Assembly: GCF_005938745.2 (NCBI RefSeq)
Contig: NZ_VCBX02000001.1
Location: forward strand, 3,506,001 to 3,570,000
Reading direction: 5' to 3'
Source of the DNA: Rhodococcus sp. KBS0724
GTDB lineage: Bacteria; Actinomycetota; Actinomycetes; Mycobacteriales; Mycobacteriaceae
DNA: 64,000 nt
Within the stretch, counting starts at the first letter, position 1. Every line of letters begins with the position of its first letter. The translations under genes were made by a program, and so were the position numbers. Below, in pieces: positions 17,661-29,779 of this stretch. The notes beneath the pieces were generated by a model. That model was not told the origin of the DNA. It did no database searches and saw nothing but the letters and a program-made list of their open reading frames with translations.

Positions 17661-18803
17661 CAGTTTGCGTTCAATCGATCCGGTGAGGAGGTTCGGGAAG
17701 TGTGGCCGGGCCGACGTCTCGGCATCAACCAACAAACTCCGATGCCTGGTCGTGTCCACGACGTACCGCAGTTACGCGGCAAGCGGAAGTGAGATGAACG
17801 CGAATCGCGATCTACCGGCCCGGTCGGGGCCATACGCTGACTCGTCCCAGCACTACCAGGATGTGTCGATAAATGCCGTAGCCACACCCTGGAGGAGACG
17901 TAGTGCGGCGCTCGTCCCCCAGTGAGTCCATCACCGGAAGGTAGACCGTATATGACAATGCTCTTCGAACGAACATTGACCACAGCCATGGTGAAACTAA
18001 TGACGTCAATCTCGACACCCCGGGAACGACGTATTGCCCCGAGGGCTCGCCGATCGCCTTCGGCATTGAGCACGCAACACCGAGACCCACTAACAACTAA
18101 CCGTTCCGAGTTGTCTGTTAACCCGCAATTTCGAAGCAGTACAAGCCGACCGATCCGGAGTTTTTCTCGACGGTAACAAGACGGTGACACAATCGATTGT
18201 CGAGATCGAAGCGAGAACTTGCCAGCCGGAAAACAACGGTGACGACGGCAGCCTGCGCACGCAGCCAGGGCACTTATCCGCACAGTCGGAGTTTTCGGCG
18301 TGTCTACACTGGCCGAACCAGGTCGATACTCATGCCGATTTGATCGTAATTTCTCTTGCGATGGAATTTGTTTCGCACTTAATTCTTCGAACTTCGAGTA
18401 CGGCTGAGGTGGACACGGTTGCGGCTCAGATGACCTCGCGATTCCATGTCGCGACCCGGGGTGATCTCGGTTCGTGTTCAGTCGTTCGAACACACCTGCA
18501 CCTGGCCTCAACACAAAATCAGAGTCTCGAAAATCAAGATGGGGCGCACCACACATGAGAAACTCGTGCTGCGGGATGGAAATCGTGCTCGAAACCTGTC
18601 CACTCCTAACACATTTCCGCCCAGAGCCCCTTGACAGGACGGGTGCGCGACCGGGAGGTGGACGTGACGCTACGGACCGACCGACTCACTGCCCGCGAAA
18701 CCCCCGTGCAGCGTGCATCTGGTGACGAGAGCAGGCTGGGCCCGTCACGAGGTGAACCACACGTCCGGGAGAGCGCCTTATCTACGGAGGCAGCAGATCC
18801 GTC
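17661..18803. other. Long region with no supported gene
   Basis: About 1.1 kb. A 298-codon open frame exists on the minus strand (17660-18556), but its translation is rich in Arg, Ser and Cys with no family resemblance. The stretch 17.9-18.6 kb is clearly less GC-rich than neighbouring genes. I regard it as non-coding or decayed. The promoter of the efflux gene should lie at its right end. Confidence 0.5.
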
Positions 18804-26974: not shown

Positions 26975-27546
26975 ATGTTGGACGAGTTCACCGTCCACCC
27001 GCACGAGCATTTCAACGACGGATGCACCTCCGCTGCTGTACTTTACGAAGAACGTCGAGCATTGGGGTATCGCGGCAGTTATAGCTCTGTCCGCGATTAC
27101 CTTCGCCCGTTTCGCAGAATAGGGGCAGCTCCACAGTCCACACCGAGGGTGCTGAAAGTGCGGCGGATCACCTCCTGGATGCTGCGGCATCCCGACAACC
27201 TCACCGACGACGACCAGTCAGACGGGGGCAGGTTCTCGCCAGCGGCCCACACCTCGAAGGCCACCGCAGGACATGTCAACTCGTTCGCGGAGATACTCAC
27301 CGGACGCCTTGGTGAACAATTGAACTCGTGGATGTCTGCCATCTCGACGGATGATCTCCCTCGCAGCTGCATCGCGTCGTTCGAGGGCTCGACACCGACC
27401 ACGCTGCGGTCCTGAATGGACTGACTTTGCCATACAGTTCCGGCGCCGTCGAAGGGCATGTCAATCGGATCAAGATGCTCAAACGACAAATGTACGGCCG
27501 CGCCGGATTCGACCTCCTCCGCAAACGAATACTCCTCAGCAACTGA
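26975..27546 (+). pseudogene. ISL3-family transposase C-terminal remnant
   Basis: The first frame reads LDEFTVHPHEHFNDGCTSA, LGYRGSYSSVRDYLRPFR, ITSWMLRHPDNLTDDD, GHVNSFAEILTGRLGEQLNSWM. After a shift near 27390 the second frame reads GLTLPYSSGAVEGHVNRIKMLK, RQMYGRAGFDLLRKRIL. This is the typical order of the ISL3 C-terminal half. The right element end probably lies at ~27550-27575 (GATCACGGAAAGTGGGCCAG). The N-terminal zinc-binding and first catalytic parts are gone. Confidence 0.82.
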
Positions 27547-27621
27547 CACTTTCAAAAACGATCACGGAAAGTGGGCCAGAACCACTTTTCTTGCGCCGTA
27601 CCTGTGGGAGGGCGCGAAGGA

Positions 27622-27655
27622 CCCACCCGGCCTGCAGTGACATAAGCCGGGTGGG
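27622..27655 (-). terminator. Hairpin, possible terminator of a third related unit
   Basis: CCCACCCGGC / GCCGGGTGGG, perfect 10-bp stem with a 14-base loop. On the minus strand it is followed by TCCTTCG, much as the two stronger hairpins at 27.85 and 28.26 kb are followed by (C/T)CTTTGTCG. Confidence 0.45.
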
Positions 27656-27827
27656 CCCCCTCGGCACGTTGGGGTTGATAGTTATTGACCCGTGGGTTCC
27701 TCACTGCACGCACTATCGGACAGGTTTCGATTTCGATCCCGTCGGCTACATAACTGTCGTGGCGATACTGGACGAAGTTTCGCCGCACAGATAGGGGGTC
27801 TCCACGTTGTGTGCTCAACGCGGATGA

Positions 27828-27953
27828 CGACAAAGGCCCCCACTCCCAGCGATGGGAGTGGGGGCATCGTTCATCCTGGCGAAGTCCCCCGACGTGGAAG
27901 AAGTCTTGAACGACAACGGCTCCTGTGGGCTGTGTGCTCAACCGGCAAGAGCC
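27828..27953 (-). ncRNA. Candidate structured RNA, unit 1
   Basis: Read on the minus strand: a stem GGCTCTTG/CAGGAGCC enclosing a loop with CCGGTTGAGCACACAGCC, about 50 bases of linker containing ACTTCGCC, then a 12-bp hairpin GCCCCCACTCCC/GGGAGTGGGGGC (27836-27865) followed by CTTTGTCG, which looks like an intrinsic terminator. Unit 2 at 28240-28364 has the same parts in the same order. The stem sequences change on both sides while pairing is kept, and the loop is conserved. No supported protein frame crosses it. The promoter is not identified; the function is unknown. Confidence 0.5.
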
Positions 27954-28239
27954 TGAACCGGACGGTTACGAGGTGCATGCTTGCCTCGGCCATCGCAGCC
28001 TAAGGATTACGTACCCAATTGACCGTGATCGAAACGAGACCTGGACGATCGCTCAGCATCCCACCAATGAGCAATTCGCCGTGGGTCCTCACAGCTCGAC
28101 CTATATCCCAGATGAGGAAACCGGGTGCAATTCCCGTCATCGTCGCACTTCTTGATAGTCGCTATGACGTTGGGACTCTGACGGGAAACCGCGCCCAACC
28201 TGATCAATTCCGGGCCGCCCTGAAATACGAATCGCTGTC

Positions 28240-28364
28240 GACAAAGACCCCCGCTCCATAAATCGGAGCGGGGGCGTCGTTCGTATTACGCGAAGTACAC
28301 CCGAATCGGACGTACCCCTGAGCAACGATCCCTGCCGGCTGCGTTTTCAACTGGCAGGGATCTC
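28240..28364 (-). ncRNA. Candidate structured RNA, unit 2
   Basis: Minus strand: a perfect 10-bp stem GATCCCTGCC/GGCAGGGATC around a loop containing CCAGTTGAAAACGCAGCC, a linker with GTACTTCGCG and GAACGAC, then a 10-bp hairpin CCCCCGCTCC/GGAGCGGGGG (28248-28274) followed by TCTTTGTCGA. The loop matches unit 1 at 14 of 18 positions. In the terminator hairpin an A-T pair of unit 1 is a G-C pair here. The conserved architecture over ~125 bases suggests a duplicated small RNA or leader element. Confidence 0.5.
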
Positions 28365-28566
28365 AACCGCAAGGATTCGAGACCCCCTCATGCGAATCTC
28401 GACCGCCGCGGTCTGCGAATCATCTCCCCCATCTGTCCGGATTTCAAGCGAGTGGTCAGTCTGAGGTTTCGGATCCGATCCGATCGGATACAGGACTGAC
28501 GTGTCGGTAACACGGGCGCGAGGAAACCGTCACGCTTGGCCTGCCTTCCGGCTCGCACCTCCCGGA

Positions 28567-28674
28567 GGTAGGCCTCGTTGAACTGCGCACCGCCCTCCAA
28601 CTCGCCGTTGTGCGGCCCGGTGCGTATGGCTCACCGGCGCACCGCATTCACACGCTTGCGCCGGTGAGCTCTTC
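28567..28674 (-). repeat. 108-bp dispersed repeat, copy B (inverted relative to copy A)
   Basis: Matches 13272-13379 with about 8-10 differences. The minus-strand frame downstream reads GPHNGELEGGAQFNEAYLRE and continues ~60 codons to 28388. So the repeat may be part of a once-coding sequence, but a TGA interrupts this copy where copy A has TCA. Confidence 0.72.
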
Positions 28675-28732
28675 CCGACCGCCTGGGCGAGCAAGAGCGG
28701 AAGGGCAACCTGATCGCGATCGTTCGGGCCGA

Positions 28733-28948
28733 TCAGGAAATCCACTCCCATCCCGCGTCGCTCAATTCGTGGTCGTCGCACAGCCATATCTCCACCGAGG
28801 CTTCCGGCGGTTCGACTTGTCCAAGCTGGCGGACGCCTTTTGCGTCGCCTCCGAGCCTTCTTGTCGCAGTTGCGGTGCAGTTCTTGACGGCGCATTCATG
28901 GTGTTGAGTCATGCTGCACACGTTCGTCTGGGCTGGGAATGAATGCAA
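28733..28948 (-). CDS. Small Cys/His-rich protein
   Basis: 71 residues from ATG 28948, or 59 from the ATG at 28912; neither has a strong ribosome site. The pattern HHECAVKNC near the start and WLCDDHE near the end gives a plausible four-ligand zinc site, as in many short actinobacterial proteins of unknown role. The stretch after its stop is the dispersed repeat copy B. Hypothetical. Confidence 0.45.
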   Translation of the reverse strand: MHSFPAQTNVCSMTQHHECAVKNCTATATRRLGGDAKGVRQLGQVEPPEASVEIWLCDDHELSDAGWEWIS

Positions 28949-29064: not shown

Positions 29065-29226
29065 ATGTGGTGGATTGTCGGAATTATCGCTATCGGGATC
29101 ATCGTGGGCACGTTAACTGCAGTATGGGCAGGTCGCGCAATCAGCCACGCCGACCAGAGAGAATCAAGCGCCGAACTGCGTTGTGCGCCGACTGTCGAGG
29201 AGAAACCGAACCGTTGCCGAGAGTAG
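29065..29226 (+). CDS. Small single-span membrane protein
   Basis: 53 residues from ATG 29065. One strong membrane helix (WWIVGIIAIGIIVGTLTAVWAG) and a short charged tail with two cysteines. There is no family assignment and no clear ribosome site. It stands alone. Confidence 0.4.
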   Translation: MWWIVGIIAIGIIVGTLTAVWAGRAISHADQRESSAELRCAPTVEEKPNRCRE

Positions 29227-29315: not shown

Positions 29316-29579
29316 CTACCTGCGGTACCGATCGATCATTCTGGTCAGCCATTCGACACCTGCCGGATTATCACTGTGAATGCGAATCTCCCGTGGCCAC
29401 AGCCTATTTTCGAGCATCCAAAAAACGACGGTAGATGTGGTGTCTCTTCCACCTAGGTCGTAGGTGAGGGAGAGCCGTTCCACCATGCCGAAACAGAGTG
29501 CGTCGATAGCGCCTGAACTGGTCTTTGCCCACGTCCACCCATCTGGTGGTTTCCGCAAGTTATCAACCCAGAGGTTCAT
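29316..29579 (-). CDS. cREC-type (cyclic-phosphate processing receiver-like) small protein, variant acidic residues
   Basis: 87 residues from ATG 29579. It follows the receiver-like small family pattern: MNLWVDNLR, PDGWTWAKTSSGAIDALCFG, VERLSLTYDLGGRDTTS, VVFWMLENRLWP, IRIHSDNPAGVEWLTRMIDRY. In relatives I remember the first acidic pair is WVDDLR and the second block is L(D/F)HDLG; here one Asp is Asn and the second is Thr-Tyr-Asp. Function of the family is largely inferred. This one may have lost phosphate or metal chemistry. Family identification is from memory. Confidence 0.55.
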   Translation of the reverse strand: MNLWVDNLRKPPDGWTWAKTSSGAIDALCFGMVERLSLTYDLGGRDTTSTVVFWMLENRLWPREIRIHSDNPAGVEWLTRMIDRYRR

Positions 29580-29779
29580 TATGTAGCCGAGCCTGTGATT
29601 GGTCGCATTGCTAACCATCTCCCGAAACGGGGGTGGAAGTCCAGAACCTACGTAGGGCGAGTCGCAAGTGCTGTCAGCCCTCAAGTTGGCGAACCTTTGG
29701 TCTGACAGAGGCAGGGACCTAAGTAATTTGCCTGTTCAGAAGCAACTTTGGGCGGGTGAAATCGGGGGTGAATCCTCGC

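Follow-up and report, generated by a model that had tools for sequence, protein, structure and literature searches.

The repeated hairpins at positions 27622-28364 of the window, i.e., of the whole 64,000-nucleotide stretch of DNA analyzed here (G000:C1:3506001-3570000, part of a 7.25-Mb genome labelled G000), raise the question of whether they belong to one family of RNA and of what such RNAs would do. A preliminary description had read them as a tandem family of structured minus-strand units with compensatory changes. Two units, A and B, are found on the minus strand in the order described, with inverted repeats at P2 (27918-27953 in unit A and 28327-28362 in unit B) and at terminator-like hairpins (27836-27865 and 28248-28274, respectively), both of which are followed by CTTTGTCG. 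The stem GGCTCTTG/CAGGAGCC of unit A is replaced by GATCCCTG/CAGGGATC in unit B, and an A-T pair of the terminator stem in one unit is a G-C pair in the other. The predicted folds reach -65.3 kcal/mol for unit A (z -4.63) and -70.6 kcal/mol for unit B (z -6.81), and none of 200 dinucleotide shuffles was equally stable in either case. Together with their 5′ parts, the units are copies of an RNA type termed FamII, and both belong to the training set of its covariance model, R2. Copy A (27832-28016, minus strand; R2 match 27914-28016, 105.1 bits) comprises, in order, a P0 hairpin, an AUG-bearing region, an AACC/GGUU hairpin, P2 with the loop AGCACA, a 3′ stem, and the terminator-like hairpin; copy B (28240-28429, minus strand; R2 match 28323-28429, 93.5 bits) bears the loop AAAACG in P2. 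The sole promoter-like site in 27400-28800 is TTGAAA-N17-GATGAT at 28419-28447 (minus strand), just upstream of copy B, and it is considered weak because shuffled sequences give a mean of 0.6 such sites; the scan of this interval returned none for copy A or for the plus-strand RNA described below. An imperfect 17-bp inverted repeat at 28131-28187, between units A and B, has no match to models R1, R2, or R3.

A partial third unit had also been suggested at GTTGAGCACACAAC (27806-27819), with a hairpin at 27622-27655 as part of it. This sequence is instead the reverse complement of the P2 hairpin of a different, plus-strand RNA, termed FamI, the core of which is matched by model R1 at 27759-27831 (plus strand; 52.3 bits, E 2.2e-12; outside the training set and aligned with 45 other copies). 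The window copy consists of a diverged P1 region, GATAGGGGGTC, and the hairpin P2 with the loop TGTGCT (27810-27815); it is devoid of the ATGAGGGG loop that other copies carry, and, given its diverged 5′ part, it may no longer be working. The hairpin, delimited here at 27619-27658, is a separate inverted repeat, and nothing was found joining it to either RNA; the minus-strand stretch 27600-27830, which folds with a z of -3.86, spans both this hairpin and the plus-strand FamI element. A second, diverged FamI copy with the loop CGTGCT is located at 18053-18126 on the minus strand (R1, 36.7 bits, E 4.4e-8). FamI and unit A converge and meet at one 13-bp GC-rich palindrome (27836-27865), which is followed by CTTTGTCG on the minus strand and by ATCGTTC, without a T run, on the plus strand; it is terminator-like on the minus strand only, i.e., for FamII, and is possibly common to FamI. 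The preliminary description had thus missed that two RNA types are present on opposite strands, that the commoner one is on the plus strand, and that unit A meets it at a single palindrome.

The FamI consensus came from a paralogous locus searched against 28 genomes of the same genus (matches in 10 of the 28), and the stretch most frequently matched in that search is the FamI block, not unit A or B. On the plus strand the consensus reads TGAGGGGkCAGCTCGGCACGGATAGnGGGTC, followed by the hairpin GUC.CCGyGUUG-UGUGCU-CAAyrCGG.AUGAC and a variable GC-rich terminator-like hairpin. P2 covaries in an alignment that was not fitted to it: in A2, a MAFFT alignment of 23 copies (22 distinct), 95.9% of 242 cells are paired and 5 of the 11 pairs are changed on both sides, and slid versions of the helix pair in 20-57%. 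Among 500 shuffles, none reached the observed paired percentage or covariation score, 3 reached the number of pairs changed on both sides, and 121 reached the number of pair types. In alignment A5, double changes affect 9 of 10 pairs, a figure that leans towards structure because A5 was fitted to the model. Support for the P1 helix is modest, as 63 of 5000 shuffles pair equally well (24 distinct arm pairs; 31 of 46 rows with the loop). The motif TAnnGT, resembling a -10 element, is found within 24 nt upstream of the R1 start in 29 of 46 copies, whereas approximately 8% per copy is expected if equal base frequencies are assumed and the relatedness of the copies is disregarded. A leader peptide from ATGAGGGG was considered and rejected, the frame not being kept: single-base length changes between copies and early stops in some were seen by eye.

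The strand of each RNA is indicated by the polarity of its wobble pairs. In an alignment of 45 distinct relatives that was fitted to the model, 95.7% of the FamI P2 cells pair on the plus strand versus 85.7% on the minus strand, with 58 G-U versus 9 A-C cells on the plus strand; 32 rows favor plus, 7 minus, and 6 neither. The pair table of the unfitted A2 sums to 27 G-U and 6 A-C cells, which is the same direction. FamII behaves in the opposite manner. The nine related copies of alignment A4 have in common a block resembling GGGTACATGATTCGCAGG on the 5′ side, several hairpins, and a P2 of GGUUCUUGnCGGUUG-AGCACA-CAGCCnnCAGGAACC, in which 97.4% of the cells are paired (81% in two smaller helices) and a U-G wobble two pairs from the loop occurs in all nine; P2 has 24 G-U versus 1 A-C cell on the minus strand, and eight rows favor minus, none plus, and one neither. 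For the whole FamII structure, four pairs are changed on both sides, a number attained by 8 of 500 shuffles; the paired percentage was reached by 2 of 500, the covariation score by 1, and the number of pair types by 83. The minus-strand RNA with compensatory change is thus upheld by relatives in other genomes. Because of strand polarity, FamI and FamII are assigned to opposite strands and GTTGAGCACACAAC is seen to be FamI P2 from the other side; of the proposed tandem family, units A and B stand as copies of one type, and a one-strand family that includes the third unit is ruled out. That FamI and FamII are structured RNA genes of two types, on opposite strands, is well supported by these sequence comparisons.

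The covariance-model search called for in the preliminary description recovered relatives of both RNAs. R1 gave 49 matches in 11 of the 28 same-genus genomes, 10 of them in G000 and 16, the maximum per genome, in G016; the single weak match in G026 (locus L049), which lacks TGTGCT, is probably due to chance. R2 gave 34 rows at E ≤ 0.01 in 13 of the 28 genomes, from which the 12 with E ≤ 3.3e-6 were retained and the 22 weaker ones dropped. When 298 genomes of the order were searched with stricter filters, G000 again gave 10 R1 matches, and a single weak match (22-27 bits) came from each of 18 other genomes; these 18 are taken for chance because TGTGCT occurs in only 3 of the 18 loci (L080 being without sequence, and L074 holding a short P2-like piece). 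Among the genomes searched, FamI and FamII are confined to one branch of Rhodococcus, the named carriers of FamI being R. erythropolis, R. qingshengii, and strains identified only as Rhodococcus. FamI copies are furthermore found on Rhodococcus plasmids (seven records, one with a second place), and an exact-pattern scan picked out a single IMG/VR viral contig, on which FamI and FamII are both located; blastn with two FamI copies gave no match in a phage collection. The earlier suggestion of a phage or plasmid origin is compatible with this distribution.

Neither a leader, also suggested earlier, nor a riboswitch-type attenuator fits the annotated contexts. At the seven plasmid copies (one place per record), no gene is annotated at the match and the listed neighbors differ; the next downstream gene in the PLSDB gene lists, which are incomplete, is convergent in four of seven and co-directional at approximately 0.3-0.8 kb in three, so a co-directional gene behind the terminator-like hairpin is not present in all copies. 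FamI and FamII have no common annotated neighbor. Their dispersal in many copies over chromosomes, plasmids, and a viral contig could be that of non-autonomous mobile repeats of the MITE or REP kind, in which the palindromes act as DNA and RNA structure is a by-product. We regard this as very unlikely, since the strand-polarized G-U pairs and double stem changes point to selection on RNA and the elements have promoter-like and terminator-like ends. Moreover, five genomes have one FamI copy at an orthologous position; there, two 60-column core blocks (the promoter region, P1, and P2) have 58 and 56 invariant columns, versus 50 in the next block and 42-57 in flanking blocks, although this difference is modest. 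This copy is followed by an open frame of 64 aa that includes a single hydrophobic stretch (L016, 1700-1900, plus strand). RNA-guided, retron, REP, and attC readings were considered in general terms and set aside.

A further RNA, FamIII, is related to FamII through its GGTACGTAA start and a GUUG-A.....-CAGC hairpin. It lies behind FamI on the same strand, at approximately 0.4 kb in four plasmid copies (L087, L088, L089, and L101) and at approximately 40 nt in the viral-contig locus L098 and in G016; model R3 gave 5 rows in 2 of 28 genomes. Of the 17 partners, FamII or FamIII, 15 lie no more than 1 kb from a FamI copy, against a chance expectation of approximately 0.3% each in G000. This count involves some circularity, since neighbors of FamI supplied most of the sequences on which R2 and R3 were trained (8 of the 12 FamII rows and 2 of the 5 FamIII rows are training copies). 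Without the training copies, linkage is still far above chance, at five of seven: the linked partners are 116720 in G013, 72991 in G022, 391927 and 690850 in G016, and 347332 in G000 (which hardly differs from a training copy), and the unlinked ones are 3448776 and 115792 in G000. Close convergent FamI/FamII pairs number four in G000 (including FamI/FamII-A), one in G003, three in G016, and one in L098, and adjacent FamI and FamII are divergent in G013 and G022. Viewed from the other side, the five genomes with partners contain 36 FamI copies, of which 18 have a partner within 1 kb and 18 do not, and G021 and G023 carry FamI with no match to R2 or R3. Beside the RNA cluster of L098, a piece of viral contig (1-1293) contains one frame that by eye resembles an SGNH hydrolase and another large frame, and these frames suggest that the cluster may also move with a prophage. 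The intervals between these RNA genes repeatedly contain a further short repeat, GTGAGCAATTCTGGGCGGGTGAAATC (L098 2070-3430, minus strand; G000:C1:5282609 and nearby), which often opens a short frame; its first 16 bases have five matches with at most one mismatch in G000, one of them exact. At approximately 28976 of the window, a variant longer by one base can be seen, although a search with up to 3 mismatches returned none.

Among the 46 aligned FamI copies, 43 have UGUGCU as the P2 hexaloop, and its exact complement, AGCACA, forms the partner loop in 13 of 19 cases, as judged by eye (10 of 12 FamII and 3 of 7 FamIII, two of the three FamIII copies being nearly identical and the loop of match 3448776 standing outside the count). 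The 14-nt consensus tips of FamI and its partner are predicted to form a full duplex of -22.8 kcal/mol. This complementarity suggests a kissing interaction. A hairpin always shows the complementary loop on its other strand, and a past inversion could therefore yield such complementarity without function; on plasmids, the partner is on the strand of FamI, so the complementarity there is not merely that of two overlapping strands. The six non-complementary partner loops are AAAACG (unit B), AGCCAA, AACAAA, AACAGU, AAAAGA, and AAAACA; no matching loop change was seen in the neighboring FamI, and an obligatory kiss is disfavored for this reason. What the partner RNAs keep constant is A as the first loop base and the U-G wobble near the loop.

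These exceptions, together with the FamI copies and genomes that lack a partner, are also what one would expect if FamI were a multicopy small RNA that pairs in trans with mRNAs through its AUGAGGG loop, GGAUAGnGGG linker, and UGUGCU loop, with FamII and FamIII as separate co-travellers and the complementarity incidental. The three named parts are constant, while the sequences of the P1 stem and the terminator-like hairpin vary. The linkage of partners to FamI, inside and outside the training set, and the exact complement in most partner loops speak against it, and we consider it possible but rather unlikely. Alternatively, the hairpins could be protein-binding sites, serving as a sponge or a processing substrate, a reading for which the nearly invariant UGUGCU and the U-G wobble of FamII can be adduced. 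It is judged quite unlikely: no candidate protein is linked to the RNAs, and, hypothetical proteins without a name set aside, the products listed next to the seven plasmid copies differ. A known case is that of the dual-hairpin RNAs targeted by ANTAR proteins in actinobacteria, with which these RNAs have in common adjacent hairpins, a hexanucleotide loop, and a short linker. As described in PMC8164766, ANTAR targets have A1 and G4 in both hexaloops, and the actinobacterial search tolerated one deviation. By contrast, UGUGCU of FamI P2 has G4 with U1, the P1 loop is of 7 nt as read here, and the FamII and FamIII loops have A1 with A or C at position 4. Furthermore, unlike ANTAR targets, these RNAs carry their own terminator-like hairpin and are not consistent leaders. 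An ANTAR-target assignment was rejected on the full A1/G4 pattern.

The reading preferred here, tentatively and at somewhat less than an even chance, is that FamI and FamII are stand-alone small-RNA genes, that FamI acts in trans, and that the linked partner opposes it by loop-loop pairing. The FamI transcript, estimated at approximately 110 nt, would follow a -10-like TAnnGT and comprise the P1 loop AUGAGGG, the linker CGGCrCGGAUAGnGG, the P2 loop UGUGCU, and the terminator-like hairpin, and the FamII transcript, estimated at approximately 170 nt, would contain several hairpins, including P2 of the form GUUG-A.....-CAGC, and its own terminator-like hairpin. If both are transcribed, FamI would act in trans via its constant loop and linker, and the linked FamII or FamIII would restrain it through UGUGCU-AGCACA kissing, comparable to what antisense RNAs do at loci for plasmid control or of the type I toxin-antitoxin kind; the palindrome may be a further meeting point of the two transcripts at unit A. 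Most of the doubt concerns this mechanism, for which we infer transcription, trans action, and loop restraint, and not the existence of the RNAs. Counting against the preferred reading are, among other points, that most modelled FamII copies were found by adjoining FamI and that A4 holds only nine related sequences. A more far-reaching proposal, which we hold to be distinctly doubtful, is that these RNAs form a two-RNA control module not previously described, i.e., a constant UGUGCU RNA and a linked partner with the complementary loop, convergent on chromosomes, tandem on plasmids, and with up to 16 FamI copies per genome, amounting to a cell-wide sense/antisense network without a protein component. 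If true, a multicopy, covarying RNA with a linked complementary partner would make RNA-RNA control accessible through a compact genetic system in an actinobacterial genus of industrial use, and the three covariance models could be applied as they are to existing Rhodococcus transcriptomes.

The statement in the preliminary description that no described RNA fits agrees with Rfam (release 15), which has no match in the window and, over the window and seven loci, returned one tRNA only; at E ≤ 1, the seven loci gave a tRNA and two matches below the threshold, one of them overlapping and the other in L098, and none of the three lies on these RNAs. Multicopy small-RNA families with several paralogous intergenic genes per genome and constant parts include LhrC of Listeria and the rhizobial alpha-r15/AbcR; FamI and FamII resemble them in these respects and differ in occurring as two linked RNA types, and we know of no sequence relation to either family. 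In layout, the convergent FamI/FamII form is the same as the par locus of pAD1 (RNA I/RNA II of the par/fst type I toxin-antitoxin system), according to PMC7472228. The par/fst locus consists of two convergent RNAs with a shared bidirectional terminator; the palindrome between FamI and FamII-A, with no T run after it on the plus strand, is possibly of this kind. The pairs in G013 and G022, however, are divergent; in addition, half of the counted FamI copies have no partner within 1 kb, and the partner in the plasmid form is on the strand of FamI. No counterpart of the hydrophobic toxin frame of par/fst was found: in 33 of the 34 copies scanned, FamI is overlapped by no hydrophobic frame of 22-110 aa (mean hydropathy cut-off 2.0 over 17 residues), and FamI/FamII is not classed as par/fst for this reason. 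The exception is L016, where a GTG frame of 36 aa narrowly exceeds the cut-off and overlaps the 3′ part of FamI.

A study of Rhodococcus sp. P14, cited in PMC8164766, reportedly found 75 new small RNAs, and FamI and FamII may be among them. The titles and abstract beginnings retrieved from the literature hold no description of these RNAs; mycobacterial small RNAs are the subject of PMC3388012. In RNA-seq of R. erythropolis with phage WC1 (PMC10986025), two host non-coding RNAs, F6 and ydaO, differed at every time point, and the host non-coding RNAs were characterized with Rfam; RNAs absent from that library might therefore escape naming.

Among the neighboring protein genes of the window, a 53-aa one-helix membrane protein starting with MWWIVGI is encoded at 29065-29220 (plus strand), with 8 matches in G000 and 5 in G003. 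Some copies are beside FamI/FamII, in some loci downstream, adjoining the RNAs by coordinates near 2327 kb and 3535 kb and, in G003, near 1517 kb, and others are not; a close paralogue is without a Pfam family. This protein was rejected as a candidate regulated gene, as only L136 among seven loci (approximately 1.5-kb flanks) had R1 or R2 matches above 70 bits. Convergent to it, at 29316-29582 (minus strand), is a gene for a cyclic-phosphate processing receiver domain protein (PF20274, E 1.1e-21), and a similar pair of membrane protein and PF20274 protein is located beside the paralogous RNA locus L002. On the other side of the RNA genes, 26978-27412 gave no Pfam match, and the broken frames at 26975-27540 (plus strand) resemble the end of an ISL3-type transposase.
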